Assembly: GCF_000205165.1 (NCBI RefSeq)
Contig: NZ_GL883836.1
Coordinates: 1 to 64,000, forward strand
Length of the DNA: 64,000 nt
Direction of reading: 5' to 3'
DNA from: Paraprevotella xylaniphila YIT 11841
GTDB lineage: Bacteria; Bacteroidota; Bacteroidia; Bacteroidales; Bacteroidaceae
The notes under the pieces were generated by a model, which did no database searches, was not told where the DNA came from, and saw nothing but the letters and a program-made list of their open reading frames with translations. The position numbers and the translations under genes are program-made. Shown piece by piece: positions 31,712-64,000 of the stretch. The number at the start of each line of letters is the position of its first letter. The first letter of the stretch is position 1.

Positions 31712-31719
31712 TATTTTTG
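31712..31719 (+). promoter_or_regulatory. -7 box of the metal efflux operon
   Basis: TATTTTTG matches TAnnTTTG and ends 20 bases before the ATG at 31740. The transcript would begin after the in-frame TTG at 31701, supporting the ATG as start. No clear -33 box. Confidence 0.6.
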
Positions 31720-31739
31720 CACAAAAATTGAAAAGTAGC

Positions 31740-33002: not shown

Positions 33003-33007
33003 AAAGC

Positions 33008-34096: not shown

Positions 34097-34111
34097 TCGG
34101 GAGGAAGGAGT

Positions 34112-37237: not shown

Positions 37238-37258
37238 CATGCAAAATCCGTATATTTG
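37231..37258 (+). promoter_or_regulatory. Possible internal promoter for the two-component genes
   Basis: TATATTTG (37251-37258) is an exact -7 match. TTTG at 37231-37234 overlaps the pump's stop codon, but the 16-base spacing is shorter than the usual 19-21. It could give the regulator pair expression independent of the pump. Confidence 0.45.
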
Positions 37259-37271
37259 CAGATGAAATCCC

Positions 37272-37964: not shown

Positions 37965-37982
37965 AGCCAGGAAGGAAGAAGG

Positions 37983-45383: not shown

Positions 45384-45430
45384 TACAAAAGCGGGAAAGA
45401 CCTATCCAACGGGCTTTTTCGCTTTTTTTG
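45384..45430 (+). terminator. Terminator between the xylan module and the FAS1/SusCD cluster
   Basis: AAAAGCGGGAAAG pairs with CTTTTTCGCTTTT with one mismatch zone and is followed by TTTT. It separates the GH67 gene from the next operon. Confidence 0.7.
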
Positions 45431-45567: not shown

Positions 45568-48126
45568 ATGAGTGCAAGGAAAAACAGAAGAAGATTCGCT
45601 CCTTTTTGGGCTGGCTTGGCATGCTGTGCCTTGGGTTGTGTCTACTCCTGCAATGATGGCTACGATTTGATAGATGAAGATCCGGCGTGGCTAGGCAGTA
45701 GTATTTACGACTATTTGAAGTCGAATGGGAATTACACCAATGTAGTGAGAATGATTGACGACCTTGGTTATACTGAGGTTCTTGCCCGTACGGGTAGCAA
45801 AACTCTCTTCGTGGCTGATGATGATGCCTACGCACGTTTCTATAATAGTGGAAAATGGGGCGTGAGAAGTTACGAGGAGTTATCCATGGCGCAAAAGAAG
45901 CAGTTGCTTTATGGCTCAATGATTAACAATGCTTGCCAGGTAGCTTATTTGTCCAGTTCCACAGGCCCGACAGAGGGAGACTGTATGCGCCGTTTGACTT
46001 CGGCATCGGCATACGACACTGTTCCCGTACTTCGGCCGATTGATATGCCGGATACAAAGTATTGGGCATATTACAAAAATTCAGGTAAGACTATCCCTTG
46101 TTTGGCAGATATGACCACGGCGCCTATGATCCATTTCATTGAGGCTTATTTGCAGAACCGTCGTATTTCCAATGACGATTGTAATTTCCTCTTTAATTAC
46201 GCCACGGAGCGTAAGCCGGGTGATGCCAATGTGAATGGAGTGATGATGGTAGAGCAAAACATTCGTTGTTCTAATGGCTTTGTACATAAGATGGGAGATG
46301 TGATGACCCCGCTTCCTAATTTGGCTAATGTCATTGCGGGGATGCCACGCGCACAACAATTTTCAAAGATGTTGGATCGTTTTTCAGCACCTTATTATGA
46401 TGAATCGTTGACGCAGGAGTATAACCGTTTGTATGGCACCAGTTATGATTCCGTTTTTCAGAAACGTTATTTTTCAGAGCGTTCACAAAAAGGACAACCT
46501 TTGAATTTGACACAGAAGGAAGAACCGGTGGAGGCGATGCTGAAATTCGACCCGGGTTGGAATGAATATTATTCCGAGTTGAATGCCAGTGTCTCTACGG
46601 ATGTCCTTTTGCAACAAGACATGGCTGTCATGCTTGTGCCAACCGACGCCGCACTTACGGATTATTGGGAGAATGGTGCCGGAAAAGTATTGAAAGATAG
46701 GTATGGGACTTGGGAAAATGTGCCAGACAAGGTGCTTTCGAAGCTATTGAACGTAAACATGCTTAATTCTTTTTCCAATTCTGTTCCCAGTAAATTCAGC
46801 ACAGTGTTGAATGATGCGAATGATGAACTGAAGATTAAAAAGGAAGATGTGGATAGCGTGTTCTTCGCTTGTAACGGGGCTGTTTATTTGACGAATAAAG
46901 TGTTTAGTCCGGTAGCCTATATATCCGTGTCGTTTCCGGCCTTAGTCAATGAAACTATGAATATCATCAATTGGGCTATTGAACAGTATGATTATGATGT
47001 ATATCTGAATTCGCAAAATTCTACTTATAGCTTCTTCATTCCGACGAATCAAGGACTGCTGACTTATGTCGATCCATGTTCTTTTGGCAAGAATCAGACT
47101 CAGGTCTATGAGTTTCATTATGATGAGAAGGCCCAGACGGAAGCAGAGAAAGTACGGGCTTTTATCTTTAACTATGACGTGGAGTCTGGGATAAGGCTTG
47201 ATTCGATAGGTGAAGCTTCGACGACTCAGATACGTGACCGTTTGACGGATATTTTGGAAACACATATTGTGGTTGGTAATGTGGAAAGCGGGGAAAAGTA
47301 TTATAGAACAAAAGACGGAGGTACGATTTTTGTAGAAAATGCAGGAAAGCCTAATATGACCGTTGCCGGAGGATGGCAGGTGGAACATGGTGAAAAGTTG
47401 CCTGTTGCACAAATTTATAAGGAAGAAAACGGTAAGGCTTATATATTGGAGGGCTCGCTTATACAGACCGCCCAGAAATCTGTTCCCGATTTACTGAAAG
47501 AACATGATGAGTTTTCGAAATTTTACGAATTGTTGGAAGGTTCCTCTATCATGTCAAATGTTATTTCGACAGGAAGTGGTGCAGATGCACCGTCTTATGC
47601 TTGTCCAAGTCCGAGTATTACATTATTTAATACGTTCCATTATACGGTATATGTACCGACTAACGAGTCCATACAAGCTTTACACGATGAAGGAAAGTTG
47701 CCGACTTGGGATGAGGTGGAAGCTGAACAGGACGAGGATGAAAAAGAAAGGATGACGGAGCAAATAGAGAAATTCCTCAAATACCATATTCAGGACAACT
47801 CGTTATATATCGGACAGGGAAAGATTGCCGAAGCTGACTATGAAACCTCAGCTTATGAAATCAATGGGGCGGATAACACCATTTCTTATTGTCGTTTGAC
47901 AGTGGAGGGTGATGACAGTCATCTGACAGTAAAGGATGCGGCAGGGAACAAGCGCAACGTGTTGAAAAATGGCGGCCTTTACAACTTGATGGCACGTGAA
48001 TACCAGTATAATACTGCAGACGTGGCCTCAGCTTCGGAGATTTATACGACTTCTTACGCTGTGGTGCATCAAATAGATGGACCGTTAATGTGGGAAAAGG
48101 ATGCTGAAACGGGGAATATGGAATAA
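45568..48126 (+). CDS. Large fasciclin-domain (FAS1) lipoprotein
   Basis: An 852-residue lipoprotein (leader ending VYSC, Cys28, followed by NDGYDLIDED). I see about four FAS1-like modules with the typical sequence 'short helix, then T/V-FxPTD-like'. They begin near 43 (SIYDYLKSNG ... TLFVADDDAYARF), 320 (AVMLVPTDAALTDYW), 460 (NSTYSFFIPTNQGLLTYV) and 640 (YTVYVPTNESIQAL). FAS1 modules usually mediate adhesion or ligand binding. It is the first gene of the FAS1-SusC-SusD cluster, suggesting a surface partner of the transporter. Confidence 0.82.
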   Translation: MSARKNRRRFAPFWAGLACCALGCVYSCNDGYDLIDEDPAWLGSSIYDYLKSNGNYTNVVRMIDDLGYTEVLARTGSKTLFVADDDAYARFYNSGKWGVRSYEELSMAQKKQLLYGSMINNACQVAYLSSSTGPTEGDCMRRLTSASAYDTVPVLRPIDMPDTKYWAYYKNSGKTIPCLADMTTAPMIHFIEAYLQNRRISNDDCNFLFNYATERKPGDANVNGVMMVEQNIRCSNGFVHKMGDVMTPLPNLANVIAGMPRAQQFSKMLDRFSAPYYDESLTQEYNRLYGTSYDSVFQKRYFSERSQKGQPLNLTQKEEPVEAMLKFDPGWNEYYSELNASVSTDVLLQQDMAVMLVPTDAALTDYWENGAGKVLKDRYGTWENVPDKVLSKLLNVNMLNSFSNSVPSKFSTVLNDANDELKIKKEDVDSVFFACNGAVYLTNKVFSPVAYISVSFPALVNETMNIINWAIEQYDYDVYLNSQNSTYSFFIPTNQGLLTYVDPCSFGKNQTQVYEFHYDEKAQTEAEKVRAFIFNYDVESGIRLDSIGEASTTQIRDRLTDILETHIVVGNVESGEKYYRTKDGGTIFVENAGKPNMTVAGGWQVEHGEKLPVAQIYKEENGKAYILEGSLIQTAQKSVPDLLKEHDEFSKFYELLEGSSIMSNVISTGSGADAPSYACPSPSITLFNTFHYTVYVPTNESIQALHDEGKLPTWDEVEAEQDEDEKERMTEQIEKFLKYHIQDNSLYIGQGKIAEADYETSAYEINGADNTISYCRLTVEGDDSHLTVKDAAGNKRNVLKNGGLYNLMAREYQYNTADVASASEIYTTSYAVVHQIDGPLMWEKDAETGNME

Positions 48127-48155
48127 AATGTCAAACCAAATAATACTATAAATGA

Positions 48156-51100
48156 ATGAAAACCCTATATCGACATATTATGTTAGGTGCGTTTGTCGCT
48201 TTGCCTTTGATGGGTTTTGCGCAAGCACCCGGGACGATGATTAGTGGTACCGTCTCTGACGATATTGAACCATTGATGATGGTGAATGTGGTCGAAGTAG
48301 ACGAGGCAAACCGTATCGTGGCTCATGGTGTAACGGACATCAATGGAAACTTTTCTTTCCGCATTGTGGATCCGAAGCACCGTCTGAAGATTTCGTACGT
48401 AGGCTATGCCACACAACTTATCCCTATTAAAGGGACACGTTACAATATAAAGTTGAAGAGCAACCTGCAATTAAAAGAAGTGGTTGTGAAACAGAAACGT
48501 GTAATACAATCCAGTGGTTTGGCCATACCGGAACGTGAAGTGTCGGTGGCTCATCAAACTATTGATGCTAAAGAATTTGAAGGATTGAGCCTGACGAGCA
48601 TCGACGAGGCTTTGCAAGGTCGTGTGGCTGGTTTGGATATCGTGTTCAATTCCGGTGACTTGGGGGCCGGTACGACCATGCGTTTGCGTGGAGTCAGTTC
48701 TATCAACGGTAATACCCAACCTTTGGTGGTAGTAGATGGTAATGTGTTTGAAAGCGATTACTTGTCCGGTTTTGATTTCGCTTCGGCCACTGAGGAACAG
48801 TATTCTGAGCTGTTGAATGTCAATCCGGATGACATCGCCAGTATTACGGTGTTGAAAGATGCCGCAGGTACGGCCATTTATGGTTCGCAGGGAGCAAATG
48901 GTGTGATTGAAATTAAGACAAAGCGTGGGGTCAGGGGGAAGACGAAAGTGACTTATTCCTATGCGGCTACGATGACTTACCAACCCAAAGGCATGCGCAT
49001 GCTGAATGGTGACCAATACACCATGTTGATGAAAGAAGCATATTATAATCCGGAATTAAGTGATGCCGCGTCCGACATTCCGGAGTTTAATTACGATCCG
49101 TCGTTTGCAGAGTATGAACATTACAACAACAATACGGACTGGGTGGATGCGGTGACCAAGGTGGGTTGGTTGCAAAAGCATTATGTGACGCTTTCCGGTG
49201 GAGGAGAGAAGGCTGCGTTCCGTATCTCTGCCGGTTACGACCACCAGACCGGTACGGTCATTGCCCAGGAGCTTGACCGTTTCACGACTCGTGTGGCCTT
49301 GGATTATTTTGTGAGCGACCGCATCAAGATTGTGACGAACTTTAACCTGACGTATCAGGATAACCAGAAAAACTATAGTGATTTGTTGAATATTGCTTAC
49401 CGCAAAATGCCGAACATGTCTATTTACGAGCAGGATGCTTATGGTAACAATACCCCAAATTACTACCACATGTTGCCGACAGCTTCTTCCACGTTCCGTC
49501 AGAATGGCGACCAATACAGTTTGGTGAATCCCGTGGCTTTGGCATACGAGGCCACGAATGAAGAGACATTGTATAGGATGCAGCCCGAGTTCCAATTGCA
49601 CTATAACCTTTTGGGGTTGGATGATTCCAAAATGCAATTAAAGTACGAAGGCAAAGTGCTGTTCAATATAGAGAATAGGTATACCGACAAGTTCTATCCT
49701 TCCAGTTTGGTAACGGCCGGGTGGACGGACAAGAATAACAACAAGGCTTCATCGGAAGCGCATAAGGGAAGGGCTATCACGACGACACATCGTTTGACGT
49801 TTATTCCGCACATTATGAATGCCGACCATTCTTTCATGGCGATGGCGCAGTTCCAGTTGATAGACGGTGATTCCAAACAGCAGTCTAATTCTGTGTATAA
49901 CCTTCCAACAGGGAGCATACAGTCTCCTACGGCCGATGGCTTGATTTCTGGAATGTCTACTGGGGCAGGCCAATGGAGGAGCATTTACATGACATTCTCA
50001 GCTCATTATGCCTTTAAGAGCCGTTATATTGCGGATTTCTCTGTCCGTCGTGACGGTACGACCAAGTTTGGTGACAACAAGCGTTGGGGTACTTTCCCTG
50101 CCTTGTCGTTCCGTTGGAATGTAGTGGACGAACCATGGATGAAAGGGACACAAAAATGGTTGTCCATGCTTTCTGTCCGTCCGGGTTGGGGGCGTGTAGG
50201 AAGCCAACCGGGGGCTGAATATCTCTTTTTCTCGAAGTATACGGCGACGGATTCCTATAACGGGGCCAATTCCATATATCCGAGCAATATCCGGTTGAGT
50301 AATTTGCAATGGGAAGAGAAGGAAACATGGAACGTGGGTTTCGACCTAGGACTGTTCGATAATAGGGTTACGGCTGATTTCAATATCTATACCCAAATGA
50401 CATCCAAACTTTTGATGACTAATGTGAACATTCCTTCTTCTTCCGGTTTCCCGTCTCTTTCTTGGACCAATGTCGGGAAAATGCGCAATAACGGTTGGGA
50501 ATTCAATATCAATGGTACGGACGTGGTCAAAGTCGGTAAGTTCAGGTTGGGTTTCAATGTGACGTTTGCCAATAACAAAAATGAAATCGTGGAAATGGAA
50601 CCCACGGCATTGGCTAACCTTAATAAGGACTTCGACAATAATAATGGCTCATACCTGACCCGTGTCCAACTTAATAACCCGTTCGGTGCCATATATGGTT
50701 TCCGTTATAAGGGCGTATACCAATATTCCGATTATTCGGAGGTTGAGGTGCCGGGTGTGAGTGGACCGAATGCTCCTGTGGCTCGTGACGAGAACGGTAA
50801 TGTGATTCGCGATAAGGCCGGGTTCACCATTCCGATGGTATTCGGGTATGACAAGACAACGAATACTGAACTGTATGAGTTCCAAGGTGGAGATGCCATT
50901 TACGAGGATATTAACCATGATGGGAATATCAATGAGTTGGATATCGTTTACTTGGGTTCTTCTTTGCCTAAGATTACCGGTGGTTGGGGACTGAAGCTTT
51001 CTTATGGCCGTTGGTCGCTCAATGCGCAGTTTAATTTCCGTGCGGGGAACAAAGTTGTAAATCGTGCCAGGATGGATGCAGAGTCCATGCATAATAACAA

Positions 51101-51455
51101 TAATCAGGCCGCCTCAGTCAATTGGCGTTGGCGTACGGAGGGACAGTTGGCGGAGATTCCCCGTGCCTTGTATAACAAGGGCTTCAATTATTTGGGAAGC
51201 GACCGTTTTGTGGAGGATGCGTCTTTCATGCGTCTCAACTATCTTTCTTTGGGTTACTCTCTTGACCCCAAGTTGTTGAGGAGAATAGGTGTGACTTCGT
51301 TGAGCATCAATTTGAATGCCAGCAATCTGTTTTGTCTGACCAATTACTCCGGTGCGGATCCCGAGATCGGGTATGGCGGTATGGGTGTGGCCACGGATGG
51401 AGCCAAGACACCGCGTTCGCGGCAGTTCACGGCACGTGTGCAGATAGGTTTCTAA
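48156..51455 (+). CDS. SusC-like TonB-dependent outer-membrane transporter (first copy)
   Basis: A 1099-residue TonB-linked transporter. A signal peptide (1-22) is followed by a carboxypeptidase-regulatory-like domain (about 28-105, with ISYVGYATQLIPI). A plug comes next (about 130-255: GRVAGLDIVFNSGDLGAG, TMRLRGVSSINGNTQPLVVVDG, ITVLKDAAGTAIYGSQGANG), then a barrel of about 22 strands ending in Phe. Its SusD partner follows 19 bases later. The pair imports an oligomer selected by SusD; the substrate is not evident. Confidence 0.95.
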   Translation: MKTLYRHIMLGAFVALPLMGFAQAPGTMISGTVSDDIEPLMMVNVVEVDEANRIVAHGVTDINGNFSFRIVDPKHRLKISYVGYATQLIPIKGTRYNIKLKSNLQLKEVVVKQKRVIQSSGLAIPEREVSVAHQTIDAKEFEGLSLTSIDEALQGRVAGLDIVFNSGDLGAGTTMRLRGVSSINGNTQPLVVVDGNVFESDYLSGFDFASATEEQYSELLNVNPDDIASITVLKDAAGTAIYGSQGANGVIEIKTKRGVRGKTKVTYSYAATMTYQPKGMRMLNGDQYTMLMKEAYYNPELSDAASDIPEFNYDPSFAEYEHYNNNTDWVDAVTKVGWLQKHYVTLSGGGEKAAFRISAGYDHQTGTVIAQELDRFTTRVALDYFVSDRIKIVTNFNLTYQDNQKNYSDLLNIAYRKMPNMSIYEQDAYGNNTPNYYHMLPTASSTFRQNGDQYSLVNPVALAYEATNEETLYRMQPEFQLHYNLLGLDDSKMQLKYEGKVLFNIENRYTDKFYPSSLVTAGWTDKNNNKASSEAHKGRAITTTHRLTFIPHIMNADHSFMAMAQFQLIDGDSKQQSNSVYNLPTGSIQSPTADGLISGMSTGAGQWRSIYMTFSAHYAFKSRYIADFSVRRDGTTKFGDNKRWGTFPALSFRWNVVDEPWMKGTQKWLSMLSVRPGWGRVGSQPGAEYLFFSKYTATDSYNGANSIYPSNIRLSNLQWEEKETWNVGFDLGLFDNRVTADFNIYTQMTSKLLMTNVNIPSSSGFPSLSWTNVGKMRNNGWEFNINGTDVVKVGKFRLGFNVTFANNKNEIVEMEPTALANLNKDFDNNNGSYLTRVQLNNPFGAIYGFRYKGVYQYSDYSEVEVPGVSGPNAPVARDENGNVIRDKAGFTIPMVFGYDKTTNTELYEFQGGDAIYEDINHDGNINELDIVYLGSSLPKITGGWGLKLSYGRWSLNAQFNFRAGNKVVNRARMDAESMHNNNNQAASVNWRWRTEGQLAEIPRALYNKGFNYLGSDRFVEDASFMRLNYLSLGYSLDPKLLRRIGVTSLSINLNASNLFCLTNYSGADPEIGYGGMGVATDGAKTPRSRQFTARVQIGF

Positions 51456-51474
51456 TATTTAAAATGTTTACGTT

Positions 51475-53190
51475 ATGAAATTCTATATAAACAAACAATT
51501 TACAAAGTTGTTCTCTGCGGCTTTATTGGCCTCTTCGCTGACGGCTTGCGATGATTTCCTGAGCATTGTTCCTCTTAATGAAGTGGTGTTGGAGAACTAT
51601 TGGACGGAAGAAGCCGATGTGACCAGTGTGGTGAATTCTTGTTATGCGCAGTTGGAGTCGGGTGATTGTCTGAAACGGATGTTGGTATGGGGCGAGTTGC
51701 GTTCCGACAATTTGACCACGGGGGCAGGTGCTCCTCAAGACATCCTTCGTATAGCTGAAGAAAATTTGTTGGAAACGAATGGTTATGCAAAGTGGGAATC
51801 GTTTTACCAGTGCATTAACCGTTGTAATACGGTAATCCATTATGCTCCACAGGTGCAAGAAAAGGATCCGAATTACACGGAAGCTGAGATGAAGGCTAAT
51901 ATTGCGGAAGTTACGGCCATACGCAGCTTGTGTTATTTTTATTTGATTCGTACGTTCCGTAATGTCCCGTTGGTGACCGAACCATCTATTGACGATTCGA
52001 AGAACTACCGGATTCCGGCTTCCAGTTTCGATGAAGTGTTGGCCCATATCATTGCTGACCTGGAAGCCGTGAAGAATGATGCGATACGGATTTATGGTGA
52101 ATATAGTGATGATAACATAAACCGTATCACCCGTTATGCCATATATGCCATGTTGGCGGATATGTATTTGTGGCAGGGGGATTACCAACGTTGCATAGAC
52201 TATTGTGATTTGATTATTGATTACAAGAAAGGTCAGTATGATGATTTGCTTCAGGAGTATTCTTCTTTTGTAAGTAATGTTGAGCTTTATGGTGACTTCC
52301 CTTTAATTTCAGAGGCTCCTAATGGTTCCTCTTATGCAGGTACGTCATTCTCGGAAATTTTTGGGAAGGGGAATTCCTTTGAAAGTATTTTCGAATTGAT
52401 TTTTGTTGATAAGGAAACACGCGAGAATCTTTTGACGAAAGATTTGTTTGGAGCATACAATAGTTCTAACGTGGGGCAACTTGCAGCGTGCCCGTATTTG
52501 AATGCCCAAGTGGCGGAAGGTACAAACTCCTATTTTAAGCGGACGGACTGCCGGGCTTTTGAGAACATGTCCGGAGAATCCACGGTGAGCATTCGCAAAT
52601 ATGTGGTCGAAGGGGCTGAATTCCGTACGAATACGACGACCGGAACGGCACCTACGGTGACTGAATATATCCGTACGGCTAATGTGGCAAACTGGATTGT
52701 GTATAGGCTTACGGACGTGATGCTGATGAAGGCGGAAGCAGAAGTCCAGCTTGCAGGCAATGTGGCAGATGGTTCCACGTTGACACCGGAACAGGAAGCG
52801 CGTTACCGGTCAGCATTTTCCTGTGTGTCTGCCGTATGGAAGCGGGCCAATAATAAGCGTGTTGCGACTACGGACACGTTGGTTTTTGAGGATTATGGCA
52901 CGTCGCGCTTGGGCATGGAGAATCTTGTGTTGGAGGAGCGTCAGCGTGAATTGATGTTCGAAGGCAAGCGGTGGTTTGATTTGGTGCGCCTTTGCCGCCG
53001 TGAAGGTTCCAACACCCGCATGTTGGATAAGGTTATGCAGAAGTTCAGCGAGAACACGGCTGCGCTCCGTATCCGTCTTTCCGCAGAAGATGCCCTTTAT
53101 TACCCGTACCATGAAAATGAATTGAAGGCCAATCCTTATTTGGTACAGAATCCGGCTTATAAGAATGATAATATAAACACAACTGAATAA
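51475..53190 (+). CDS. SusD-like substrate-binding lipoprotein (first copy)
   Basis: A 571-residue RagB/SusD-family lipoprotein with Cys25 (SLTACDDFLS). The N-terminal helical repeats include ENYWTEEADVTSVVNSCYAQL and AEVTAIRSLCYFYLIRTFRNVPLVTEPS. The C-terminal part carries the family motif VLEERQRELMFEGKRWFDLVRL (split around E-R-Q-R-E-L). It caps the preceding SusC. The next gene starts five bases after its stop. Confidence 0.95.
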   Translation: MKFYINKQFTKLFSAALLASSLTACDDFLSIVPLNEVVLENYWTEEADVTSVVNSCYAQLESGDCLKRMLVWGELRSDNLTTGAGAPQDILRIAEENLLETNGYAKWESFYQCINRCNTVIHYAPQVQEKDPNYTEAEMKANIAEVTAIRSLCYFYLIRTFRNVPLVTEPSIDDSKNYRIPASSFDEVLAHIIADLEAVKNDAIRIYGEYSDDNINRITRYAIYAMLADMYLWQGDYQRCIDYCDLIIDYKKGQYDDLLQEYSSFVSNVELYGDFPLISEAPNGSSYAGTSFSEIFGKGNSFESIFELIFVDKETRENLLTKDLFGAYNSSNVGQLAACPYLNAQVAEGTNSYFKRTDCRAFENMSGESTVSIRKYVVEGAEFRTNTTTGTAPTVTEYIRTANVANWIVYRLTDVMLMKAEAEVQLAGNVADGSTLTPEQEARYRSAFSCVSAVWKRANNKRVATTDTLVFEDYGTSRLGMENLVLEERQRELMFEGKRWFDLVRLCRREGSNTRMLDKVMQKFSENTAALRIRLSAEDALYYPYHENELKANPYLVQNPAYKNDNINTTE

Positions 53191-53195
53191 GAATT

Positions 53196-55124
53196 ATGAA
53201 AAAGATAGATAAAATATTGATACGGTTCGTGTTGGCATTTTGCGCCATTCCGGCTTTTACGGTTTCTTGTTCCGATGAACCTTTGCCAGAGAACTATTAT
53301 ACGTTTACGGGAGAGATGGTGACTGACTATCTTCAGAACCGTTCCGGTGAATTCAGCGACTTCATAGCCATTCTCCAACGTTCTGGTATGTATGGCATGA
53401 TGGCAGCCTACGGGAGCTATACTTGTTTGGCTCCGAATAATAAGGCCGTGGAGCGATATCTTCATGAATTGGGTATTCAAAGTGTGGACCAACTTACAAA
53501 GGAACAATGTGATACCTTGTCATGGAACCATATTATCAACCAAGCCTATTTCACTACGGACTTGATAGACGGGAATATTCCGACGGCAAACATGAATGAA
53601 CGCTATCTGACGTTTTCTTGTGATTCGGATGCCTTGAACAACAATAATGTGATTTATTACATCAACAAGAGTGCGCGTTTGGTTGTACGGGACGATTCTG
53701 TGGAAAATGGTGTGGTGCATACGCTTGACCGCGTAATCGTGCCGCAGTCGTTTCTGTTGCCGGATTTGTTGGCGGAAGATTCCACTATCTCCATTTTCAA
53801 TGAAGCACTTGTGTTGACGGGGTTGTGTGATTCGTTGAAGCAGTATATCGACCCTACTTATTTCTGTAGTGAAGATTCTGTGAACCAGGATATAATCATC
53901 CATACCGGAGGTTCGCAATATGCTATGCGTTATGTCGGTACGCGGATGAAGCGTTATACGGCATTCGTGGAGACTGACGAAGTCTATGCAGCCAACGGAA
54001 TACACGATTTGGATGATTTGAAAGCACATGCCAAGCAGGTGTATGACCAAATGTTTCCTAAAGATGCAGGATTGTATGACGACGATTGGACGAACCGTAA
54101 GAATCCCTTGAACCGCTTCATTTCTTACCATTTGTTGCCATATTACGGGGCTTATAACGATTGGACCGTGTCGGGTGACATCAAAAATATATGCGCCAAG
54201 ACGGATTTGATTGATTGCACAGACTGGTATGCCACGATGTTGAAAGGTACTATCATGAAGATGAGCACACCGTCCGACGGGCTTTTTATCAACCGTAAGG
54301 GAGTAGGGCCACGTTATACGGTTCGGGGTACGAAGGTGTTTTCTCCTTCTGAGATAGGGGAGGTGGACCAACAGGCTTTGAATGGTATCTACCATTATAT
54401 CGATCAGGTTTTGGATTATAATTTGGAGACACGCGACGTGGTTTTCAATGACCGAATCCGTGTTATGGCAGCCACGCTTTCTCCCGAGTTTATGAATTGC
54501 GGGGCGCGTGGAAATACGGAACGTGCCACAGGATTTAAGATGGTCGAAGGTTGGGATTTCCATGGCAAGACCCCGACCATGACTTTACGTAAGCGTGACG
54601 TATGGATGGTGACTTATGCGGATTGTATCGACATGGTGGGGCAATTCGACGTGACGTTCAAGTTGCTTCCGGTACCCAAAGAGGGAACTTATGAGGTGCG
54701 TTTTGCCTATGGTTGGGGTGATATGCGTGGAAAGGTACAGGTATATTTTGGTACGGATCCGGATGGCTTGTTACCAATGGGATTGCCCATCGACTTTACA
54801 CTTTGGCCTATCGATCCCTTGATTGGATGGGTGGCAGACACTCCGGGCGACGAGGAAGGTAATCGTGCCATCGACAAGGCTATGCGCAACCGTGGTTACA
54901 TGAAAGATATGGATTCTTGGGCGCAAGGCGGAGCCAACATCCTGAGGGCACAGCCGATGAAATTACGTAAGATTTTGACTACGGAGAATATGAGTCCGGA
55001 AAAGGATTACTACATACGGATTAAATTGGTAGTGGATAACCCGCAGGCCGAGTTGCCTATCAATTATTTCGAGATTGTGCCGAAGAGCATCTATGCCGGG
55101 GTGGAAGCCGAGGACACCCATTAA
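53196..55124 (+). CDS. Fasciclin-domain lipoprotein with C-terminal beta-sandwich
   Basis: A 642-residue lipoprotein (Cys25, FTVSCSDEP). Two FAS1-like modules are seen (about 40-190 with SYTCLAPNNKAVERYLHELG and HTLDRVIVP; then from about 195). The last about 180 residues form a beta-rich domain (DVTFKLLPVPKEGTYEVRF, GKVQVYFGTDP) resembling a carbohydrate-binding sandwich, as judged by pattern only. It sits between SusD and a second FAS1 gene in the same run, and a role in capturing or presenting substrate is inferred. Confidence 0.78.
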   Translation: MKKIDKILIRFVLAFCAIPAFTVSCSDEPLPENYYTFTGEMVTDYLQNRSGEFSDFIAILQRSGMYGMMAAYGSYTCLAPNNKAVERYLHELGIQSVDQLTKEQCDTLSWNHIINQAYFTTDLIDGNIPTANMNERYLTFSCDSDALNNNNVIYYINKSARLVVRDDSVENGVVHTLDRVIVPQSFLLPDLLAEDSTISIFNEALVLTGLCDSLKQYIDPTYFCSEDSVNQDIIIHTGGSQYAMRYVGTRMKRYTAFVETDEVYAANGIHDLDDLKAHAKQVYDQMFPKDAGLYDDDWTNRKNPLNRFISYHLLPYYGAYNDWTVSGDIKNICAKTDLIDCTDWYATMLKGTIMKMSTPSDGLFINRKGVGPRYTVRGTKVFSPSEIGEVDQQALNGIYHYIDQVLDYNLETRDVVFNDRIRVMAATLSPEFMNCGARGNTERATGFKMVEGWDFHGKTPTMTLRKRDVWMVTYADCIDMVGQFDVTFKLLPVPKEGTYEVRFAYGWGDMRGKVQVYFGTDPDGLLPMGLPIDFTLWPIDPLIGWVADTPGDEEGNRAIDKAMRNRGYMKDMDSWAQGGANILRAQPMKLRKILTTENMSPEKDYYIRIKLVVDNPQAELPINYFEIVPKSIYAGVEAEDTH

Positions 55125-55161
55125 TGTGAGGTGATATAGGGTAAATATAAAAAACAGGTAT

Positions 55162-56769
55162 ATGAAAACAAATAATAAAATACAGAACTTTGCGGTAGCG
55201 GCAATGGCCTTGGCGGCTGTGGCGTGTACCGATACGTGGGACGAGCATTATGGTAATGAAAGCCGCCCTGTGTCCGACAAGTCCCTTCTTCAAGTGATGG
55301 AAGAACAGGGGGATTTGGGTGATTTTCTCAAGGTGCTTCGCGCCACGCATGTGTTTAGCAATAATAAGCCGACAAAAGTGACGTACGCAGATTTGTTGGC
55401 CAGCGACCAGACTTTTACTGTTTGGGCTCCCAAAGACGGGCAATTTAATGTGGACTCTTTGTTGGCGGAATGCCAGACTGTGTCGGGCGATTCCATGTGC
55501 GGGCAGCACTTTGTGCAGAATCATATTGCGCATTTCATAACTAACAGCACGGACGAAAAGCAGGTCCTTATGCTCAATAACAAATACCTTGATGCAGTTC
55601 CGGGTTCTTTCCAAGGTGTGTCGTATGCTTCGGGGAGAGTTAATGGAGCAGCGAAGAACGGAGTCTTGCACGTGCTTTCAGGTGGAGTCCCCTACTTATA
55701 TAATATATATGAGGCTTTGACCACTTTGTCGGGATATGTCGGTGTTGGTTCTTTCTTCAAAGGTTATGAGAAATTGGAGTTGGATGAAAATGCCAGTATA
55801 CAAAGCGGTATTATAGATGGTAACATCGTCTATTCCGATTCTGTGATGAATATTACTAACATATTGTTTGGCTGGTTTGACCGCATAAACGAGGAAGACA
55901 GTAGTTTTATTATGTTGGTACCCGAAAATCGGGTGTGGGATAAGGTTTACAACGAGGCACTGTCTTATTTCAATTACGGCAGCGTGAATCAGGCGGATTC
56001 TTTGCAGCGTTTGTATGCCCATCAGGCCGTTATCCGGGATTTGGTGTATAACCGCAAATATGGTTGCGCGCACATGGAAGATTCCGTATGTTCCATTGCA
56101 TATAGCAAGTATGACGAGGAGCGGAGGCATGTCTACTATAATCCGTTGGCTTCCGGGGGTATCTTTTCTTCCGATTTCGTGCGTGACACGATGGCTTGCA
56201 GCAACGGGGCAATCTATAACTTGCATGAATGGCCGTTCAAGCCAGAAGACATATATTTCTATCCGGTGAAGACCGAAGCCGAGTATGAAAGCATGATGAC
56301 GGACTACAAGGATTGCACCTATGCGTCACGTTTTTCTGCCGCAGACAGTATTTCCGATGGGTATCTGGTGATTTCTCCCCGTACGAATTCATCCAATTGG
56401 ACTATGGAATTCCAGATTCCCTCTGTGCTGTCAGGAACGTATGACATTTGCGCGGTCGTGTTGCCTCGTACTGTATATAATGCCACCGACCGTAATTTCC
56501 GCCCATGTAAATTCAAGGCTTCCATTGGTTACGAGACGGTAGACGGCATAGAGCAAAGCTTCGATTTTGAGGACGAGGTGAAAAACGACCCATATCGGGT
56601 GGATACGGTGAAGATTGGTACGTTCACCATTCCCGTATGTAGTTACGGCCAGCCTAATGCCAAAGTGCATTTGACATTGGAATGCAGTATCAGCCGCATG
56701 GAGTCCGGACGGTATAACCGCGAGATGTATCTTGATTGTTTATATTTCAAACCCAATAGAGAAGAATAG
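55162..56769 (+). CDS. Fasciclin-domain lipoprotein with C-terminal beta-sandwich (second)
   Basis: A 535-residue lipoprotein (Cys22, VACTDTWDEHYG, a start common to Bacteroidetes FAS1 proteins). The first FAS1 module covers about 38-180 (TFTVWAPKDGQFNVDSLLAE; VLHVLSGGVPYLYN) and a second about 185-370. The C-terminal about 140 residues look like a jelly-roll domain (WTMEFQIPSVLSGTYDICAV; MYLDCLYFKPN). It has the same overall plan as the preceding gene product and may be a paralogue. SusC of the second pair starts four bases after its stop. Confidence 0.78.
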   Translation: MKTNNKIQNFAVAAMALAAVACTDTWDEHYGNESRPVSDKSLLQVMEEQGDLGDFLKVLRATHVFSNNKPTKVTYADLLASDQTFTVWAPKDGQFNVDSLLAECQTVSGDSMCGQHFVQNHIAHFITNSTDEKQVLMLNNKYLDAVPGSFQGVSYASGRVNGAAKNGVLHVLSGGVPYLYNIYEALTTLSGYVGVGSFFKGYEKLELDENASIQSGIIDGNIVYSDSVMNITNILFGWFDRINEEDSSFIMLVPENRVWDKVYNEALSYFNYGSVNQADSLQRLYAHQAVIRDLVYNRKYGCAHMEDSVCSIAYSKYDEERRHVYYNPLASGGIFSSDFVRDTMACSNGAIYNLHEWPFKPEDIYFYPVKTEAEYESMMTDYKDCTYASRFSAADSISDGYLVISPRTNSSNWTMEFQIPSVLSGTYDICAVVLPRTVYNATDRNFRPCKFKASIGYETVDGIEQSFDFEDEVKNDPYRVDTVKIGTFTIPVCSYGQPNAKVHLTLECSISRMESGRYNREMYLDCLYFKPNREE

Positions 56770-56773
56770 TGCC

Positions 56774-59700
56774 ATGAAACATATTTTATCAACATTTTGC
56801 CTGATGGCCGCCGTGGCAGCTCCGGTGGCGGCTCAAGAGGTGGATCAGGAATCTGCCCAGGCTACGGTACGGGATTCTGCAAAGATGGTAAAACCCATGT
56901 TGCCGGAAGTTCCGATGCGCGAAATTAAAGGACGTGTCTATGATAATGCCACTAAGCAGCCGGCAGCCGGTATCAGTGTCTCTGCTTTCAATGACGCACG
57001 TTATGCGGCTATGACCGACGAGAAGGGGGATTATGTAATCCAAGTTCCGGAATATGTTACTTCCTTGTGGATGCGCGGAGACGGTTACAACTCCCTTCAA
57101 GTACCGCTCGGCAAAGGGAATGGTTCGGTGGATGCCTATATTTTCAGCGATGCCTTCAATCCGGTCTATACGGCTTCAGGGGCAGCTACGAGTGAAAGGA
57201 CGGTAGCTGTGGATTATAACACGAATGAAATCAGTATTGACGGTCAGATTCAGAACAAGTTGGGTGCCGATATACATACCATTACGCGTAGTGGTGTGCC
57301 GGGCATGGGCGTGGCCATGTTCATGAACGGCCTGAACTCGCTCAATACGAACGCGCAGCCGTTGGTTGTCATTGACGGGGTCATCACTGATATGAGGCTT
57401 TCGGCTCCTTCCGTCCATGACGGTTTCTTCAACAACCTCCTTGCGAATATCATGGTGGAGGATATTGAGAAAATCAGTGTTTTGAAGAACGGGACGGCTA
57501 TTTATGGTGCGAAAGGTGCGAATGGGGTGATTCTCATCGAAACTAAGCGTAATAAGAGCATGGCCACGAAAATCGATGTTTCTATCGGTGGAAGCTATGA
57601 ATTATTGCCCAAGTCGATGGATATGATGGATGGGGAACAGTATCGTATCTACGCTTCCGAACTGATTGGAACGACGGGTACGACCAATAACAGTTTCAAG
57701 TTTTTGCAGACGAATCCGAATTACTACTACTATGATGTGTATCATAACAATACGGACTGGCAGAAACATGTGTACGAGGAAGCCTTCACCCAGAACTATA
57801 GCATCAACGTGCAGGGTGGGGATGACGTGGCCAACTATAATCTGTCGGTAGGGTATGCTGCGGCTGATGCCACGCTGAAGAACAATTCTTTTTCGCGTTT
57901 CAATCTGCGTCTGAACTCTGACATCGTGTTGGCGAAAAACCTCACAGTACGTTTCGATGCAGCTTATAGCGATGTGACGCGCGACATGCGTGATGACGGG
58001 GCACCGGCCACATTGGATGACGGCGTGATTTCTTCACCGGGGTTTCTGAGCCTGATCAAGTCGCCTTTCCTCAGTCCGTATGCGTTTGACACGAATGGGA
58101 ACATTTCTTCTTATTTGGCCGATGCGGATGATTACCTTTTCGATGTGTTGAGGACCAAACCTTATTTGAATTCGTTGGCCAACCCTCTGTTCATTTTGGA
58201 AAACGGAGACGGTGACAACAAAAATTATTTCGGTAACCGTCTTATCACATTAGCCGTGACTCCGAAATGGAATATCAACCGCTATTGGAGCATTTCAGAG
58301 CATTTCGCATTCCAATTGGTGAATACGGACGAGAATGCCTATTTGCCGATGAACGGGGTGCCCGATTTTGACGTGAAAGGAGTGGGCGAGGCCTTGCAGA
58401 ACCGTGCTTCTGCCTTGGCCGCACGTGAAACGGTCATCATGAGCGACTCTTACTTCGATTATGCCCGCCGTTTCAAGGCGCACTGGCTCGGTTTGCACGG
58501 AGGCTTGCGTTACCAACGTACGAGTTACCAGCTGAATTCCCAAGTGGGGTACAATAGCGGTAACGACAAGACCCCTAACATGTCGGATGGTTTGCTCTAC
58601 AAATCTACGGACGGTACGGAAGAAGAAGTGGTGGACATGACTTATTACCTTTCGGCCGATTACAACTGGCGTGAGCGCTACTATGTTTCGGCAGCGCTCA
58701 GTATGGCAGGTAGCTCCAAGTTCGGAGTGGATGCTGCCGACGGGGTGAAGGTCGGCAATTATGCTTGGGGATTCTTCCCGTCAGTGCAGGCAGCGTGGGT
58801 GTTGACCAATGAGTCGTGGATGCCCCGTACTCGTGCCCTGAATTATTTGCGGCTGAATGTGGGTTTCGACCTTGTGGGTAACGACGACCTTGAAAGCCAG
58901 GCATCGCGTACGTATTTTGTGGGACAGAAGATGTGGAATACGTCGACAGGCTTGTCTATGGCCAACATCGGTAACACGCAATTGCAATGGGAGACTACGG
59001 CACGTTGGACGGCAGGTTTGGATTTGTCCCTTTTGGATAACCGTTTGGGCGTGAACTTCAATTATTTCTATGGTAAGACATCCAATTTGCTTAGCTTGAG
59101 CGCGTTGTCGTATGTCAGCGGTTTGAAGACCAATTGGAAGAACAGCGGTGAGATGAAGAACCAAGGTTTCGACGTGAGCCTGTCTGCCAGGGTCATCGAT
59201 TTGAAAGACTGGAAGTGGAGTTTGGGAGCCAGTGCAGGACATTATAAGAACGAGCTGACTTCCTTGCCGAATGGTTCGTTTATTACGGAACTTTACGGAG
59301 GCAATGTGCTTTCACGGGTAGGTACGGCTGCCGGAGTGTTCTATGGGTACAAGACGGACGGAGTCTTTGCCACAACGGAAGAGGCTGATGCCGCAGCTTT
59401 GTATCAGGTCAACGCGACTGGGGCGAAGACCTACTTCCACGCAGGTGATATGAAGTTCGTCGATAAGGATGGCAACCACGAGATTAACGAAAAAGACATG
59501 CAGGTTATCGGTGACCCCAATCCCGACCTTTACGGGAATATTTTCACTAACGTGCGTTGGAAGAACCTTTCGTTGGACGTTGTCTTTAACTATTCTTTGG
59601 GTAATGACGTGTATAATTACCAACGCCGTTTATTGGAAGGCGGATCGCGTTTCCATAACCAGACTACCGCCATGTTGTCCCGTTGGACACATGAAGGCCA

Positions 59701-60010
59701 AAACACGGATATCCCCCGTACCTATTATTTGGACGCACCGGGCAACAGTCGTTTCTCCGACCGTTGGATTGAGGATGGTTCCTACCTTCGTCTGAAGAAT
59801 GTCACCTTGAGTTATTACTTTCCCATCCGTACGACCTATTTGCAGGGTATTACGGTGTGGGGAGCTGCCAACAACCTGTTAACCTTCACGAAGTATTTGG
59901 GTGCTGACCCTGAATTCAGTTCAAGTAACAGTGTGTTGTCGGCAGGGATAGACCGCGGTCTGTTGGCTCAAGGACGTAATTTCTCATTAGGTGTAAAGAT
60001 TAACTTGTAA
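56774..60010 (+). CDS. SusC-like TonB-dependent outer-membrane transporter (second copy)
   Basis: A 1078-residue transporter from the ATG of MKHILSTF; an upstream in-frame TTG at 56732 lies inside the previous gene and is rejected. A signal peptide ends AAQ. A short charged linker precedes the regulatory-like domain (EIKGRVYDNATKQPAAGISV), then a plug (QPLVVIDGVITD, ISVLKNGTAIYGAKGANGVI) and a barrel. It is clearly different in sequence from the first SusC, so the two pairs probably handle different ligands or chain lengths. Confidence 0.95.
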   Translation: MKHILSTFCLMAAVAAPVAAQEVDQESAQATVRDSAKMVKPMLPEVPMREIKGRVYDNATKQPAAGISVSAFNDARYAAMTDEKGDYVIQVPEYVTSLWMRGDGYNSLQVPLGKGNGSVDAYIFSDAFNPVYTASGAATSERTVAVDYNTNEISIDGQIQNKLGADIHTITRSGVPGMGVAMFMNGLNSLNTNAQPLVVIDGVITDMRLSAPSVHDGFFNNLLANIMVEDIEKISVLKNGTAIYGAKGANGVILIETKRNKSMATKIDVSIGGSYELLPKSMDMMDGEQYRIYASELIGTTGTTNNSFKFLQTNPNYYYYDVYHNNTDWQKHVYEEAFTQNYSINVQGGDDVANYNLSVGYAAADATLKNNSFSRFNLRLNSDIVLAKNLTVRFDAAYSDVTRDMRDDGAPATLDDGVISSPGFLSLIKSPFLSPYAFDTNGNISSYLADADDYLFDVLRTKPYLNSLANPLFILENGDGDNKNYFGNRLITLAVTPKWNINRYWSISEHFAFQLVNTDENAYLPMNGVPDFDVKGVGEALQNRASALAARETVIMSDSYFDYARRFKAHWLGLHGGLRYQRTSYQLNSQVGYNSGNDKTPNMSDGLLYKSTDGTEEEVVDMTYYLSADYNWRERYYVSAALSMAGSSKFGVDAADGVKVGNYAWGFFPSVQAAWVLTNESWMPRTRALNYLRLNVGFDLVGNDDLESQASRTYFVGQKMWNTSTGLSMANIGNTQLQWETTARWTAGLDLSLLDNRLGVNFNYFYGKTSNLLSLSALSYVSGLKTNWKNSGEMKNQGFDVSLSARVIDLKDWKWSLGASAGHYKNELTSLPNGSFITELYGGNVLSRVGTAAGVFYGYKTDGVFATTEEADAAALYQVNATGAKTYFHAGDMKFVDKDGNHEINEKDMQVIGDPNPDLYGNIFTNVRWKNLSLDVVFNYSLGNDVYNYQRRLLEGGSRFHNQTTAMLSRWTHEGQNTDIPRTYYLDAPGNSRFSDRWIEDGSYLRLKNVTLSYYFPIRTTYLQGITVWGAANNLLTFTKYLGADPEFSSSNSVLSAGIDRGLLAQGRNFSLGVKINL

Positions 60011-60029
60011 CATTCAATTGAAACGAATC

Positions 60030-61727
60030 ATGAAAAAGAACAAGATATTTTCTATGGCATTGGCGTTGGCTTTTGGAGCCGGTGCTGCCATTACTTCCTG
60101 TGTGGATACGGATTCAAGTTTGGTGGATTTCGGTCCCCAACTGAATTCGCCCAACGATACTGTGTATTCTTTGTTAGGCATTATGAACAAGATGCAAGTG
60201 GTGGCCGACCGTACGATTATTCTCGGAGAAATGATGGGAGAACTTTCTTCCGCGACGGAAACGGCCACGACCGACTTGAAGGAACTGGCAAGCTTCACGG
60301 CAACGGCAGGCAACCGATACAATGCACCGGAGGATTATTATGCCGTCATTCAGAACTGTAATTATTATATAGCCCATGCCGATACGGCACTTTCCTTGCG
60401 TGGTGAGAAAGTGTTCATCCGGGAGTATGCCGCAGTGAAAGCTTTCCGTGCATGGACTTATTTGCAGTTGGCCATTTATTATGGCAGGGTGCCTTTCTTT
60501 ACGGAACCGTTGATGACGGAGGCAGAGGCGGACCCTTCACGTTATCCGTTTTATGATGTGAAGCAGATTTGCGAATACTTCATTCCGGATTTGGCTCCTT
60601 ATGTGGAAACAGATTATCCCTTGACCGGTAATCATAGTAACATTTTCATCCCTGTGCGTGCCTTGTTGGGCGACCTTTGCCTTTGGGCCGGGCGTTACCG
60701 TGAGGCTGCACAATACTACCATGATTACCTGACGAATTTCGACAACCCTTTGGCACCGGGCGGCAATTTGGAATGCCGTTGGGGAAATTACGAATTCAAG
60801 AGTCATACCACTTCTTTTTCATCTATTGTTGATTTGGTGGACATTCAGATGGAAGCCAGTGAATACGACGGGGTTGTGAGCCGGTTGGGGGATATCCTTA
60901 ATTCTACCGAGAATAACCGGTATTACTTCGAGATGACTTCTTCGCAGGCGTTGTTGGAACTGTCGCAGGCGCAGCGTTACGTGATGGTCTATACGGATCC
61001 GACCACGAATTTACGGGATACGATTTCTCCGGGAGAGAACACGGTCTATAGTGACAGCCGTGAGTTGGGAGATTTGCGTTTGTGTTCAAATGTCAGGGTG
61101 TCGCACATGTCGAGCCGTGACGATTATTCCGAAGACTATCAGACGTTGGTACGTTTCAGTTTGTCTTCTACTGAGTCTTCTTTTTTGCTGTACGTTCCTC
61201 TCTACCGTCTTTCATCCGTCTACTTGCGTATGGCCGAGGCTTACAACCGTGCAGGCTTGCCCGAGTCGGCTTTTGCCGTTCTGAAGTATGGGTTGAGCAA
61301 CGGTACCGTGTCTAAGTATATCAATGCCGGAGAGCGTGGGCGTGCGGGCAATCTGCTGACATGGAGCCAGTACAATTTCATTACGCAGGACATGTCGTCC
61401 ACCTCTACGACGACAGTGAATACGGAGGGAATCCATTCTTATGGTTGTGGCGAGTCTTATGCCGACACGCTTTATGTCATTCCCGAAGGATTGGCCACTC
61501 GTGAAGATTCCATTCTCTTTGTGGAAGATTTGATTTGTGATGAGATGGCTTTGGAGCAGAGTTTCCTTGGAGTGCGCTTCGGAGACTTGCAACGTATCGC
61601 ACTTCGGCGCGGCGACACGGACTTTTTAGCTCGTAAAGTAGCCGGGCGCGATGGAAAAGACAGTTTCAATGCGGAACTTTATAGCCGCTTGTCCGATAGG
61701 AATAATTGGTATTTGCCATTGGAGTGA
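60030..61727 (+). CDS. SusD-like substrate-binding lipoprotein (second copy)
   Basis: A 565-residue lipoprotein of the SusD/RagB family, start at the ATG of MKKNKIF with lipid Cys24 (ITSCVDTDS). Helical repeats include FIREYAAVKAFRAWTYLQLAIYYGRVPFF. The C-terminal family motif is less standard (LICDEMALEQSFLGVRFGDLQRIALRRGD). It partners the second SusC 19 bases upstream. A 170-base gap with a hairpin follows. Confidence 0.9.
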   Translation: MKKNKIFSMALALAFGAGAAITSCVDTDSSLVDFGPQLNSPNDTVYSLLGIMNKMQVVADRTIILGEMMGELSSATETATTDLKELASFTATAGNRYNAPEDYYAVIQNCNYYIAHADTALSLRGEKVFIREYAAVKAFRAWTYLQLAIYYGRVPFFTEPLMTEAEADPSRYPFYDVKQICEYFIPDLAPYVETDYPLTGNHSNIFIPVRALLGDLCLWAGRYREAAQYYHDYLTNFDNPLAPGGNLECRWGNYEFKSHTTSFSSIVDLVDIQMEASEYDGVVSRLGDILNSTENNRYYFEMTSSQALLELSQAQRYVMVYTDPTTNLRDTISPGENTVYSDSRELGDLRLCSNVRVSHMSSRDDYSEDYQTLVRFSLSSTESSFLLYVPLYRLSSVYLRMAEAYNRAGLPESAFAVLKYGLSNGTVSKYINAGERGRAGNLLTWSQYNFITQDMSSTSTTTVNTEGIHSYGCGESYADTLYVIPEGLATREDSILFVEDLICDEMALEQSFLGVRFGDLQRIALRRGDTDFLARKVAGRDGKDSFNAELYSRLSDRNNWYLPLE

Positions 61728-61843: not shown

Positions 61844-61897
61844 AAAAACGAAAAAAGTAGAGTTATATAAATTAGTATTAATCTTAAATTGAAGTTT

Positions 61898-64000
61898 ATG
61901 AGGAAGAAAAACTTTTTGATGTTGCTCGGCCTTGCCGGATTCGGCTTGACAGCCCAGGCGCAAGTCGTTGCAACGTTAGGTTTCGAGGATGGTGACCAGT
62001 TCTACCATCACAAGGACTCCACGCAATTTGCGGACTTCTACGGTGACCACATCAACCTCCAACCCGGGGATGTGTGGAATGAGAAGTGTGAAGAGACTTA
62101 TTCAGGCAAGTATGCCTTGGAGGCGAACAACTCCAATACGGTACAGGGTTCCCAATGGCATCGTGGTTTGAAGTTGCGTTATTTGCCCATTGAGGAAGGC
62201 AAATCCTACCGTGTGTCGTTTTGGGTGAAGGCCGACCAGACCTTTACGATGGCTGACGGGGGCGACCCGATAAATACGGCCATCAAATCGAGCCTGTCCA
62301 TTGGAAGGGAACACCTTGAGGCTCCCTTGATGTCGCAGAGCGGTGCGCAGTATTATTACGATTGGAGGGATGGCATCATGACGGGCGATTGGCGGCGTTT
62401 GTCGTTCGTGGCTTACAACTCCGGAAAGACCGTGCAGGACAAGTTCTTCGACCAGTTCGATGATAACATCAAAGACATCATCGTGAATGACCCCGAAGAC
62501 CCTTCGAAGAACGACACGATTTGGTGGAAGGGTGATGATACGTCGTTCCCTGACACGTATTTCCTGACCATCAATATGTACAATCCTGGCCGTTATCTTT
62601 TGGATGACATTAAGATTGAAGAAGCCACGATGGCAGGCTGTACGTATAATTATGATGCCATCAAGGTGGACTTCGGTTATCCTACGAATGCCGCCCAGTT
62701 GGCTTCTGCCAACACTGACCCGATCGGGGTGCATCTGTTGCCCAATTCGTATGTGAATGTGACGAACGGCGAGGAAGAGATGGAAGTGGCTTCAGTGGAA
62801 CTGAAGAAGGATGGTTACATGTATATTTTCATGGCGAATGAAATCGCCGAGGATGAGAGTGCCAATATCAAAGTCAGCTTCACGCCCGATGCGGATTGCC
62901 CGCTCATCTATACCACCGACCAACGTCCGAGCATGGATGTGACGAGCGAGATGAAAGTGCTCCCATTCACGAGCGAAGCCATTTACTATGATGAGACCAT
63001 CGAAGAAATGTCCTATCTGATGGACGGCCCGGTATACTTGTCATCAGTGCCGGAAGACCACAGCTTTGAGTTGGATCCGTCTTCATTCAATGAAGTGCGT
63101 GTGACTTACGACCGTGACGTGGCTTTGGACATCGCGTCTGTCCAATTGATGCAGAACGGCGTGCAAGTAGCCGATTTGTATGAATCAACCGTGGTGTCCG
63201 AGGAGGATCCGAAAACTGTGGTAGTATCGGTCGGCACGTTGGAGAATGGCGAATACCAGTTGGTGGTGACCAATGTGACCAATGCGTTGAGCGGTTTTGA
63301 GGCATTGCAGCCACAGACCATTAACTTCTCCGTAGGGCCGGATCAGAGCACGGGAACAACGGAACTCGTTTATTCTGCTGCTAAAGACTTTGCCACGTAT
63401 GCCAACGGTACTTTCCCGAAAGGTTGGTTGTCGAACGACAATGGAACCATCCACCAGTATGGTGTGACAGAAAGCGGTGAAGTTTGGAATTATAACTGGG
63501 GTGGTAACATTGGCGGTGGTGGATGCCGTTTGCAGGGTCCTTATACCGGTGATTTCAACGGTATGGCTCTTTATTGGCGTGCTACCGGCGGTACGGTGGG
63601 TACGGCCACTTATGGCGAACAGGTAAAAGACTATGTGATGCCCGACGGCACTTTGGATCCGGAAATGGATCCGGGAGTAGCGCTTCGCCTGACACCGCGC
63701 AAATATCAGCTTTCATTCCGCATGGCTGCGTGGAAGGCATTTGGAGACGGAACGTTGCCTAAATTCAATTTCTCGCTTGAAAAGATTGATTTGAAGAATC
63801 CTGATACAGGCGGTGAGGTGGTTGCCCATTTCAGCGGGCTTGAAGCCAAACCGAGCGTAAATGGTGGTCAAAATATGCCGGTGACGGGCACGTCTGTTAC
63901 CACTACGGAATTTACAGTAAACGAAGAGGGCTATTATATGTTGAAGTTCTCTTGCCAAAGTGGAGGAGGTTTCGAAGAATTCCTTTTGGGGGCCGTGGAA
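61898..64000 (+). CDS. Secreted multidomain protein, 3' end outside the window
   Basis: An open frame from ATG 61898 continues without stop to the right edge (701 codons so far). A signal peptide ends TAQAQ (about 1-22) and there is no lipobox. A jelly-roll-like domain covers about 25-250 (GKYALEANNS, YRVSFWVKADQT, LLDDIKIEEA), similar in pattern to carbohydrate-binding modules. Two Ig-like regions follow: about 255-390 with VKVSF-type strands, and about 390-485. Another beta-rich region has repeated Gly/Trp (WNYNWGGNIGGGG). I do not recognise a catalytic domain in the visible part. Its position right after SusC/SusD suggests a surface glycan-binding protein or an enzyme whose catalytic part lies beyond the edge. 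Confidence 0.7.
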   Translation, partial: MRKKNFLMLLGLAGFGLTAQAQVVATLGFEDGDQFYHHKDSTQFADFYGDHINLQPGDVWNEKCEETYSGKYALEANNSNTVQGSQWHRGLKLRYLPIEEGKSYRVSFWVKADQTFTMADGGDPINTAIKSSLSIGREHLEAPLMSQSGAQYYYDWRDGIMTGDWRRLSFVAYNSGKTVQDKFFDQFDDNIKDIIVNDPEDPSKNDTIWWKGDDTSFPDTYFLTINMYNPGRYLLDDIKIEEATMAGCTYNYDAIKVDFGYPTNAAQLASANTDPIGVHLLPNSYVNVTNGEEEMEVASVELKKDGYMYIFMANEIAEDESANIKVSFTPDADCPLIYTTDQRPSMDVTSEMKVLPFTSEAIYYDETIEEMSYLMDGPVYLSSVPEDHSFELDPSSFNEVRVTYDRDVALDIASVQLMQNGVQVADLYESTVVSEEDPKTVVVSVGTLENGEYQLVVTNVTNALSGFEALQPQTINFSVGPDQSTGTTELVYSAAKDFATYANGTFPKGWLSNDNGTIHQYGVTESGEVWNYNWGGNIGGGGCRLQGPYTGDFNGMALYWRATGGTVGTATYGEQVKDYVMPDGTLDPEMDPGVALRLTPRKYQLSFRMAAWKAFGDGTLPKFNFSLEKIDLKNPDTGGEVVAHFSGLEAKPSVNGGQNMPVTGTSVTTTEFTVNEEGYYMLKFSCQSGGGFEEFLLGAVE

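Follow-up and report, generated by a model that had tools for sequence, protein, structure and literature searches.

The Xus system (xusA-xusB-xusC-xusD-xusE-xyn10C), by which Prevotella bryantii and Bacteroides utilize xylan, carries SusC/SusD pairs in tandem (PMC7848910, PMC8002723). In a stretch of 64,000 nucleotides from Paraprevotella xylaniphila YIT 11841 (contig NZ_GL883836.1, positions 1 to 64,000; hereafter, the window), we analysed a run of seven genes that encode two SusC/SusD pairs and three lipoproteins built of fasciclin (FAS1) modules, denoted FASa, FASb and FASc. As in the Xus system, two tandem pairs lie in a xylan locus, a likeness in arrangement. Unlike in that system, three FAS1 lipoproteins take the place of XusE, FASb and FASc separate the two pairs, Xyn10C, interrupted by a carbohydrate-binding module (CBM), occurs nowhere in the genome, and the gene after SusD2 encodes a CBM4_9 protein without GH10. 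Because XusE and Xyn10C are lacking, we did not file the cassette as a Xus system. In Bacteroides thetaiotaomicron, BT4164-BT4169 are listed as SusC/RagA, a DUF5108 protein, hypothetical proteins and a TonB-dependent receptor; in an experiment on iron limitation, their listed fold changes range from -6.3 to -3.3 (PMC10434189). Judged by gene names and order, BT4164-BT4169 read as our cassette in reverse and are very probably of the same type, which probably places at least one member in a locus studied before. The context of BT4164-BT4169 is presumably a rhamnogalacturonan-I locus, as opposed to xylan for the cassette in the window. A 'FAS1 domain protein' is also drawn in a polysaccharide utilization locus (PUL) of Gramella, in a figure legend, the arrangement not being analysed there (PMC4891872). 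The trypsin-binding locus of Paraprevotella, whose genes are named 00502-00509, was considered and rejected, as the part of the source covered mentions no fasciclin (PMC9477747). No description of the FAS1-SusCD arrangement was found in the open literature, subscription papers being outside the search.

We consider it fairly probable that the seven genes encode a co-inherited outer-membrane module for SusCD-type glycan import, with FAS1 lipoproteins in the role normally held by surface glycan-binding proteins and, in this locus, glucurono(arabino)xylan as the substrate. The order FASa-SusC1-SusD1-FASb-FASc-SusC2-SusD2 (positions 45568-61727) had been read by an earlier note made from the sequence of this stretch, with gaps of 4-37 bases, and was recovered in full: all seven open reading frames (ORFs) lie on one strand at the coordinates given in Table 1, separated by 29, 19, 5, 37, 4 and 7 bases, taking the ATG at 56774 as the likely start of SusC2 (its ORF opens at a TTG at 56732). 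This arrangement is far beyond chance: it exists in seven copies in the genome, and the order recurs in other orders of the class. A gene order unique to this genome, which the note had named as evidence against its proposal, is thus not what was observed. Among related Prevotellaceae/Bacteroidaceae, 27 of 27 loci show the same order as far as their contigs extend, where FASc genes dropped by the ORF chooser (overlapped ORFs) were recovered by tblastn. The order was also found, as far as the loci were fetched, in 12 of 19 from distant Bacteroidales, the remaining ones having FASb absent or moved, FASc absent, or larger differences. The full order is present in all loci from Bacteroides-like genera (6/6) and from other orders of class Bacteroidia (8/8); in the Bacteroides-like genera, the exact seven genes occur with a FASb that consists of FAS1 and DUF5108, and two of these cassettes lie behind a pectate-lyase-like gene. 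Within the family, 140 of 201 genomes contain FASa relatives, as do 16 of 295 genomes of the order (10 full-length) and 8 of 395 genomes sampled from the phylum (source genome included); all of these counts are lower bounds because few candidates per genome were scored.

Comparison of evolutionary distances across 18-23 divergent cassettes shows that all 21 gene pairs are correlated (r = 0.72-0.92, p = 0.001), and within the source genome alone the correlation is r = 0.86-0.98. Because species history cannot produce a correlation inside one genome, the cassettes appear to have been copied or acquired whole. By these sequence comparisons, the seven genes are a conserved, old cassette that recurs across class Bacteroidia. 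The seven cassettes of the source genome, which account for 14 of its 23 full SusC, are located on contigs C32 (the window), C87, C33 (twice), C13, C20 and C65; in the C65 copy the genes are shuffled, and FASb is present twice. Their neighbouring enzymes vary, with GH43-CBM6 and GH5-GH43 on C87 and alginate-lyase-like, GH28 and GH30 proteins on C65, and a hybrid two-component regulator accompanies several copies. The two cassettes on C33 (L052 2-4312 and L053 1-3574) are closely related, and similar FG-GAP repeat proteins follow each of them. Contig C24 (L059 8805-14373) encodes a 268-aa lipoprotein with a single FAS1 domain behind another SusC/SusD pair, and downstream of it an M60-like peptidase; this is a second FAS1-SusCD arrangement, unrelated to the seven-gene cassette. 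A further six FASb-like proteins (about 723-751 aa) are orphans without SusCD (L057 6354-13321, L060 2976-5228, L061 10093-12279 and L062 9342-11516), three of them in tandem on C7, and some adjoin GH31 or GH2.

Both SusC proteins exceed the 368-bit cut-off of TIGR04056 and are full SusC/RagA proteins, and each has a SusD partner. SusD1 is a clear SusD, whereas SusD2 is very divergent, its SusD_RagB match falling under the Pfam cut-off, and it was assigned as SusD-like because of its gene position and its homologues: it stands directly after SusC2 in every homologous cassette whose fetched stretch extends far enough. In the tree, the 34 rows of SusC1 fall into a single clade and the 31 rows of SusC2 into another, both with a support of 100 and separate from 12 other SusC; the sister relation of the two clades received a support of just 84 to 96, with a small outgroup.

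The fasciclin nature proposed for all three lipoproteins was borne out, by Pfam for FASa and FASb and by an AlphaFold2 (AF2) model with VIA-align comparisons for FASc, so that the absence of a FAS1 fold, named in the note as contrary evidence, was not encountered. FASa has a Pfam Fasciclin match of 57 bits (residues 649-796), and its model (mean pLDDT 63.6) comprises four FAS1 modules at about residues 44-250, 325-450, 451-635 and 636-845. Its best structural matches along its length are TGFBIp, periostin and fission yeast Fsc1, which likewise contain four or five tandem FAS1 modules but are eukaryotic secreted or surface adhesion and matrix proteins without SusCD partners. The second domain of FASb, a protein 94% identical to its P. 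clara counterpart, is a FAS1 domain by hhalign profile comparison (97.5%). FASc has no Pfam match at all; its model, built from 23 homologues, places FAS1 modules at residues 38-176 and 177-358 and a beta-sandwich at 366-533, and residues 39-176 align with FAS1-4 of TGFBIp (VIA-align Z 14.3). A lipobox-like cysteine is present in nearly all homologues of the three FAS1 lipoproteins and of SusD1 and SusD2, and in 72-82% of these homologues an acidic residue follows within four positions. In Bacteroidetes, an acidic residue near the lipobox cysteine favours surface export.

Of the two ends for which a beta-sandwich had been proposed, that of FASc was confirmed by the model and that of FASb was not. 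The FASc tip (residues 367-533) aligns best with the C-terminal module of xanthan lyase (6f2p, Z 15.6) and with MiXBM (7ehg, Z 13.8), and also with CBM35 with glucuronic acid (4qb2, 12.1), CBM22 (4xup, 11.6), CBM4-2 (2y6j, 11.4) and CBM6. In the model the tip is thus a beta-sandwich of CBM type; what it shares with these modules is the fold, and glycan binding is predicted. The C-terminal domain of FASb (54438-55121) occupies the place of Pfam DUF5108 in Bacteroides-type homologues, and no DUF5108 (PF17133) match above the cut-off was found in the FASb of the window or elsewhere in the genome. Because a profile comparison of the FASb and FASc C-terminal domains gave no match, we do not claim a common origin of the two tips. 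Like the SusE/SusF-type and other PUL surface glycan-binding proteins, the FAS1 proteins are lipoproteins encoded beside SusCD with N-terminal spacers and a C-terminal binding-type domain; unlike in those, the spacers are FAS1 modules, and three such proteins accompany two transporter pairs. The FAS1 domains might themselves be the glycan-binding modules, with the beta-sandwich tips as accessories, given that about eight FAS1 domains are spread over the three lipoproteins, that FAS1 domains of other organisms bind varied ligands (PMC6032426), and that the matches of FASa include the stabilin-2 FAS1 domain, stabilin-2 being a hyaluronan receptor. We regard this as unlikely: the same FAS1 architecture stands beside xylan, pectin/uronate and other enzyme sets, which better fits a general scaffold, and no carbohydrate-binding fold other than the FASc tip was found. 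On the strength of the model, this tip alone has a fold that speaks for carbohydrate binding, and it is a better candidate binder than FAS1.

Table 1. Features in and around the seven-gene run (positions in the window)
Feature	Position	Strand	Evidence
MFS_2 sugar transporter, inner membrane, upstream xylan operon	39535..41058	+	Pfam MFS_2 270 bits
GH10 endo-xylanase	41089..42207	+	Pfam Glyco_hydro_10 E 2e-94
GH43 enzyme	42280..43251	+	Pfam
GH67 alpha-glucuronidase	43244..45319	+	Pfam GH67M and GH67C
Terminator-like hairpin with T-tail, between GH67 and FASa	45387..45426	+	fold -17.2 kcal/mol, z -3.85
FASa, lipoprotein with four FAS1 modules	45568..48126	+	Pfam Fasciclin and AF2 model
SusC1, TonB-dependent transporter	48156..51455	+	TIGR04056 705 bits; SusC1 clade
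SusD1, lipoprotein	51475..53190	+	SusD_RagB 90 bits; PDB SusD homologues
FASb, lipoprotein with two FAS1 and a C-terminal domain	53196..55124	+	Pfam Fasciclin 75 bits; hhalign
FASc, lipoprotein with two FAS1 and a CBM-like beta-sandwich	55162..56769	+	AF2 pLDDT 76; structural matches
CBM-like domain of FASc (residues 366-533)	56257..56760	+	VIA-align
SusC2, TonB-dependent transporter	56774..60010	+	TIGR04056 557 bits; SusC2 clade
SusD2, divergent SusD-like lipoprotein	60018..61727	+	SusD_RagB 18.9 bits (weak); position and homologues
Large secreted protein with CBM4_9	61889..64000 (runs past the window to contig position 65476)	+	Pfam CBM_4_9 26.4 bits

That no hydrolase lies in the run, as the earlier note had stated, is true within the seven genes but not of their surroundings: the GH10, GH43 and GH67 genes end 248 bases upstream of FASa, and more enzymes follow downstream, where the CBM4_9 gene is succeeded by genes for a beta-helix protein, a hybrid two-component regulator, GH115, an esterase and three GH43. 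A genome search identified the GH10 enzyme (372 aa, uninterrupted) as the sole GH10 of the genome. With SusCD accompanied by these enzymes on both sides and by the regulator, the locus is, by its gene content, a glucurono(arabino)xylan utilization locus, and since the cassette in the window sits between xylan enzymes, its most likely ligand is glucurono(arabino)xylan or oligosaccharides derived from it. In a genome of another order, a GH115 alpha-glucuronidase gene adjoins the cassette as it does in the window locus (L130 16738-19743). Together with GH67, GH88 and alginate-lyase-like genes next to cassettes elsewhere, this may point to glycans that bear uronic acids; that all copies serve such glycans was kept as a lead only, because GH2, GH95 and housekeeping neighbours occur too. 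The beta-helix protein after the CBM4_9 gene (61889-64000, continued in L063 1-3539) has a borderline sorting tail of the type IX secretion system (T9SS), whereas the CBM4_9 protein gave no NCBIfam match to such a tail in its C-terminal part, though its end resembles one by eye; both proteins may be T9SS cargo. Farther upstream, positions 30399-39326 hold a gene for an Mfa2-type fimbrial anchor, then an RND efflux operon (OEP, HlyD, AcrB), a response regulator and a histidine kinase.

In the import module that we favour, SusC1/SusD1 and SusC2/SusD2 would be two different TonB-dependent lidded transporters, and FASa, FASb and FASc would be surface lipoproteins standing in for the usual surface glycan-binding proteins. 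The FAS1 modules would most likely serve as rigid spacers and protein-docking units around both transporters, and the C-terminal domains (CBM-like in FASc) would most likely keep the polysaccharide close to them. Glucurono(arabino)xylan chains would be cut while held at the surface, the oligosaccharides imported through SusC1 and SusC2, and breakdown completed inside by GH10, GH43, GH67 and GH115 under control of the hybrid two-component regulator, with the substrate of each cassette copy set by the adjoining enzymes. The surface capture complex feeding two transporters that was envisaged earlier would fit this anatomy.

Several observations weigh against this scheme. Surface display, complex formation, the ligand and the division of labour between FAS1 modules and tips are what we infer from the genes and models. 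The FASa model is confident in the last two modules only, with low confidence in the N-terminal half. Comparison of the FASb C-terminal domain with PDB and Pfam gave nothing significant and no tie to a CBM (best match MiXBM, E 0.028). In a domain-divergence test, the para/ortho ratio was 0.45 (0.36-0.53) for the CBM-like domain vs. 0.50 for FAS1 in FASc, and the CBM-like domain was not singled out as the specificity part. No surface endo-xylanase was identified, the GH10 enzyme having a plain Sec signal without a lipobox. The terminator-like hairpin between GH67 and FASa, which the consensus terminator scanner did not report, suggests that the upstream enzymes are on a transcript separate from the cassette, which therefore probably has its own. 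Finally, in many rumen genomes the cassette adjoins housekeeping genes (dnaG, ATP synthase, cstA) and not enzymes. These free-standing cassettes and the probable separate transcription would also be expected if the cassette imported another ligand, such as a glycopeptide or a cell-wall glycoprotein fragment, and the xylan neighbourhood were incidental. Such a ligand nevertheless seems improbable, as cassettes recur by GH67/GH43 in related genomes and by GH115 both here and in another order, pectate-lyase-like genes are neighbours in Bacteroides-like genera, and the hybrid two-component regulator is found at several copies. A role of the FAS1 lipoproteins in adhesion or biofilm formation, with nothing but the operon shared with the transporters, is very improbable, for although animals and fungi use FAS1 as a cell-adhesion domain and the folds nearest to FASa are TGFBIp, periostin and Fsc1, the fixed interleaving with two SusCD pairs, kept up across widely diverged cassettes, and the correlated evolution argue that these proteins work with the transporters.

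More tentatively than for the import module itself, we suggest that the cassette might be an ancient seven-subunit outer-membrane import machine, spread across several orders of Bacteroidia: three FAS1 lipoproteins would join two non-equivalent SusCD transporters into one complex, and changes of tip domains and neighbouring enzymes would have let the cassette be re-used for different polysaccharides. Most SusC of the source gut bacterium belong to this one cassette type, not found described in the open literature. If FAS1 lipoproteins are indeed glycan-capture subunits, many genes annotated as 'fasciclin' or 'hypothetical' in gut, rumen and other Bacteroidia would gain a function, and, as the two SusCD lineages have stayed together through extensive divergence, the reason why some loci retain tandem SusCD pairs would become directly testable.

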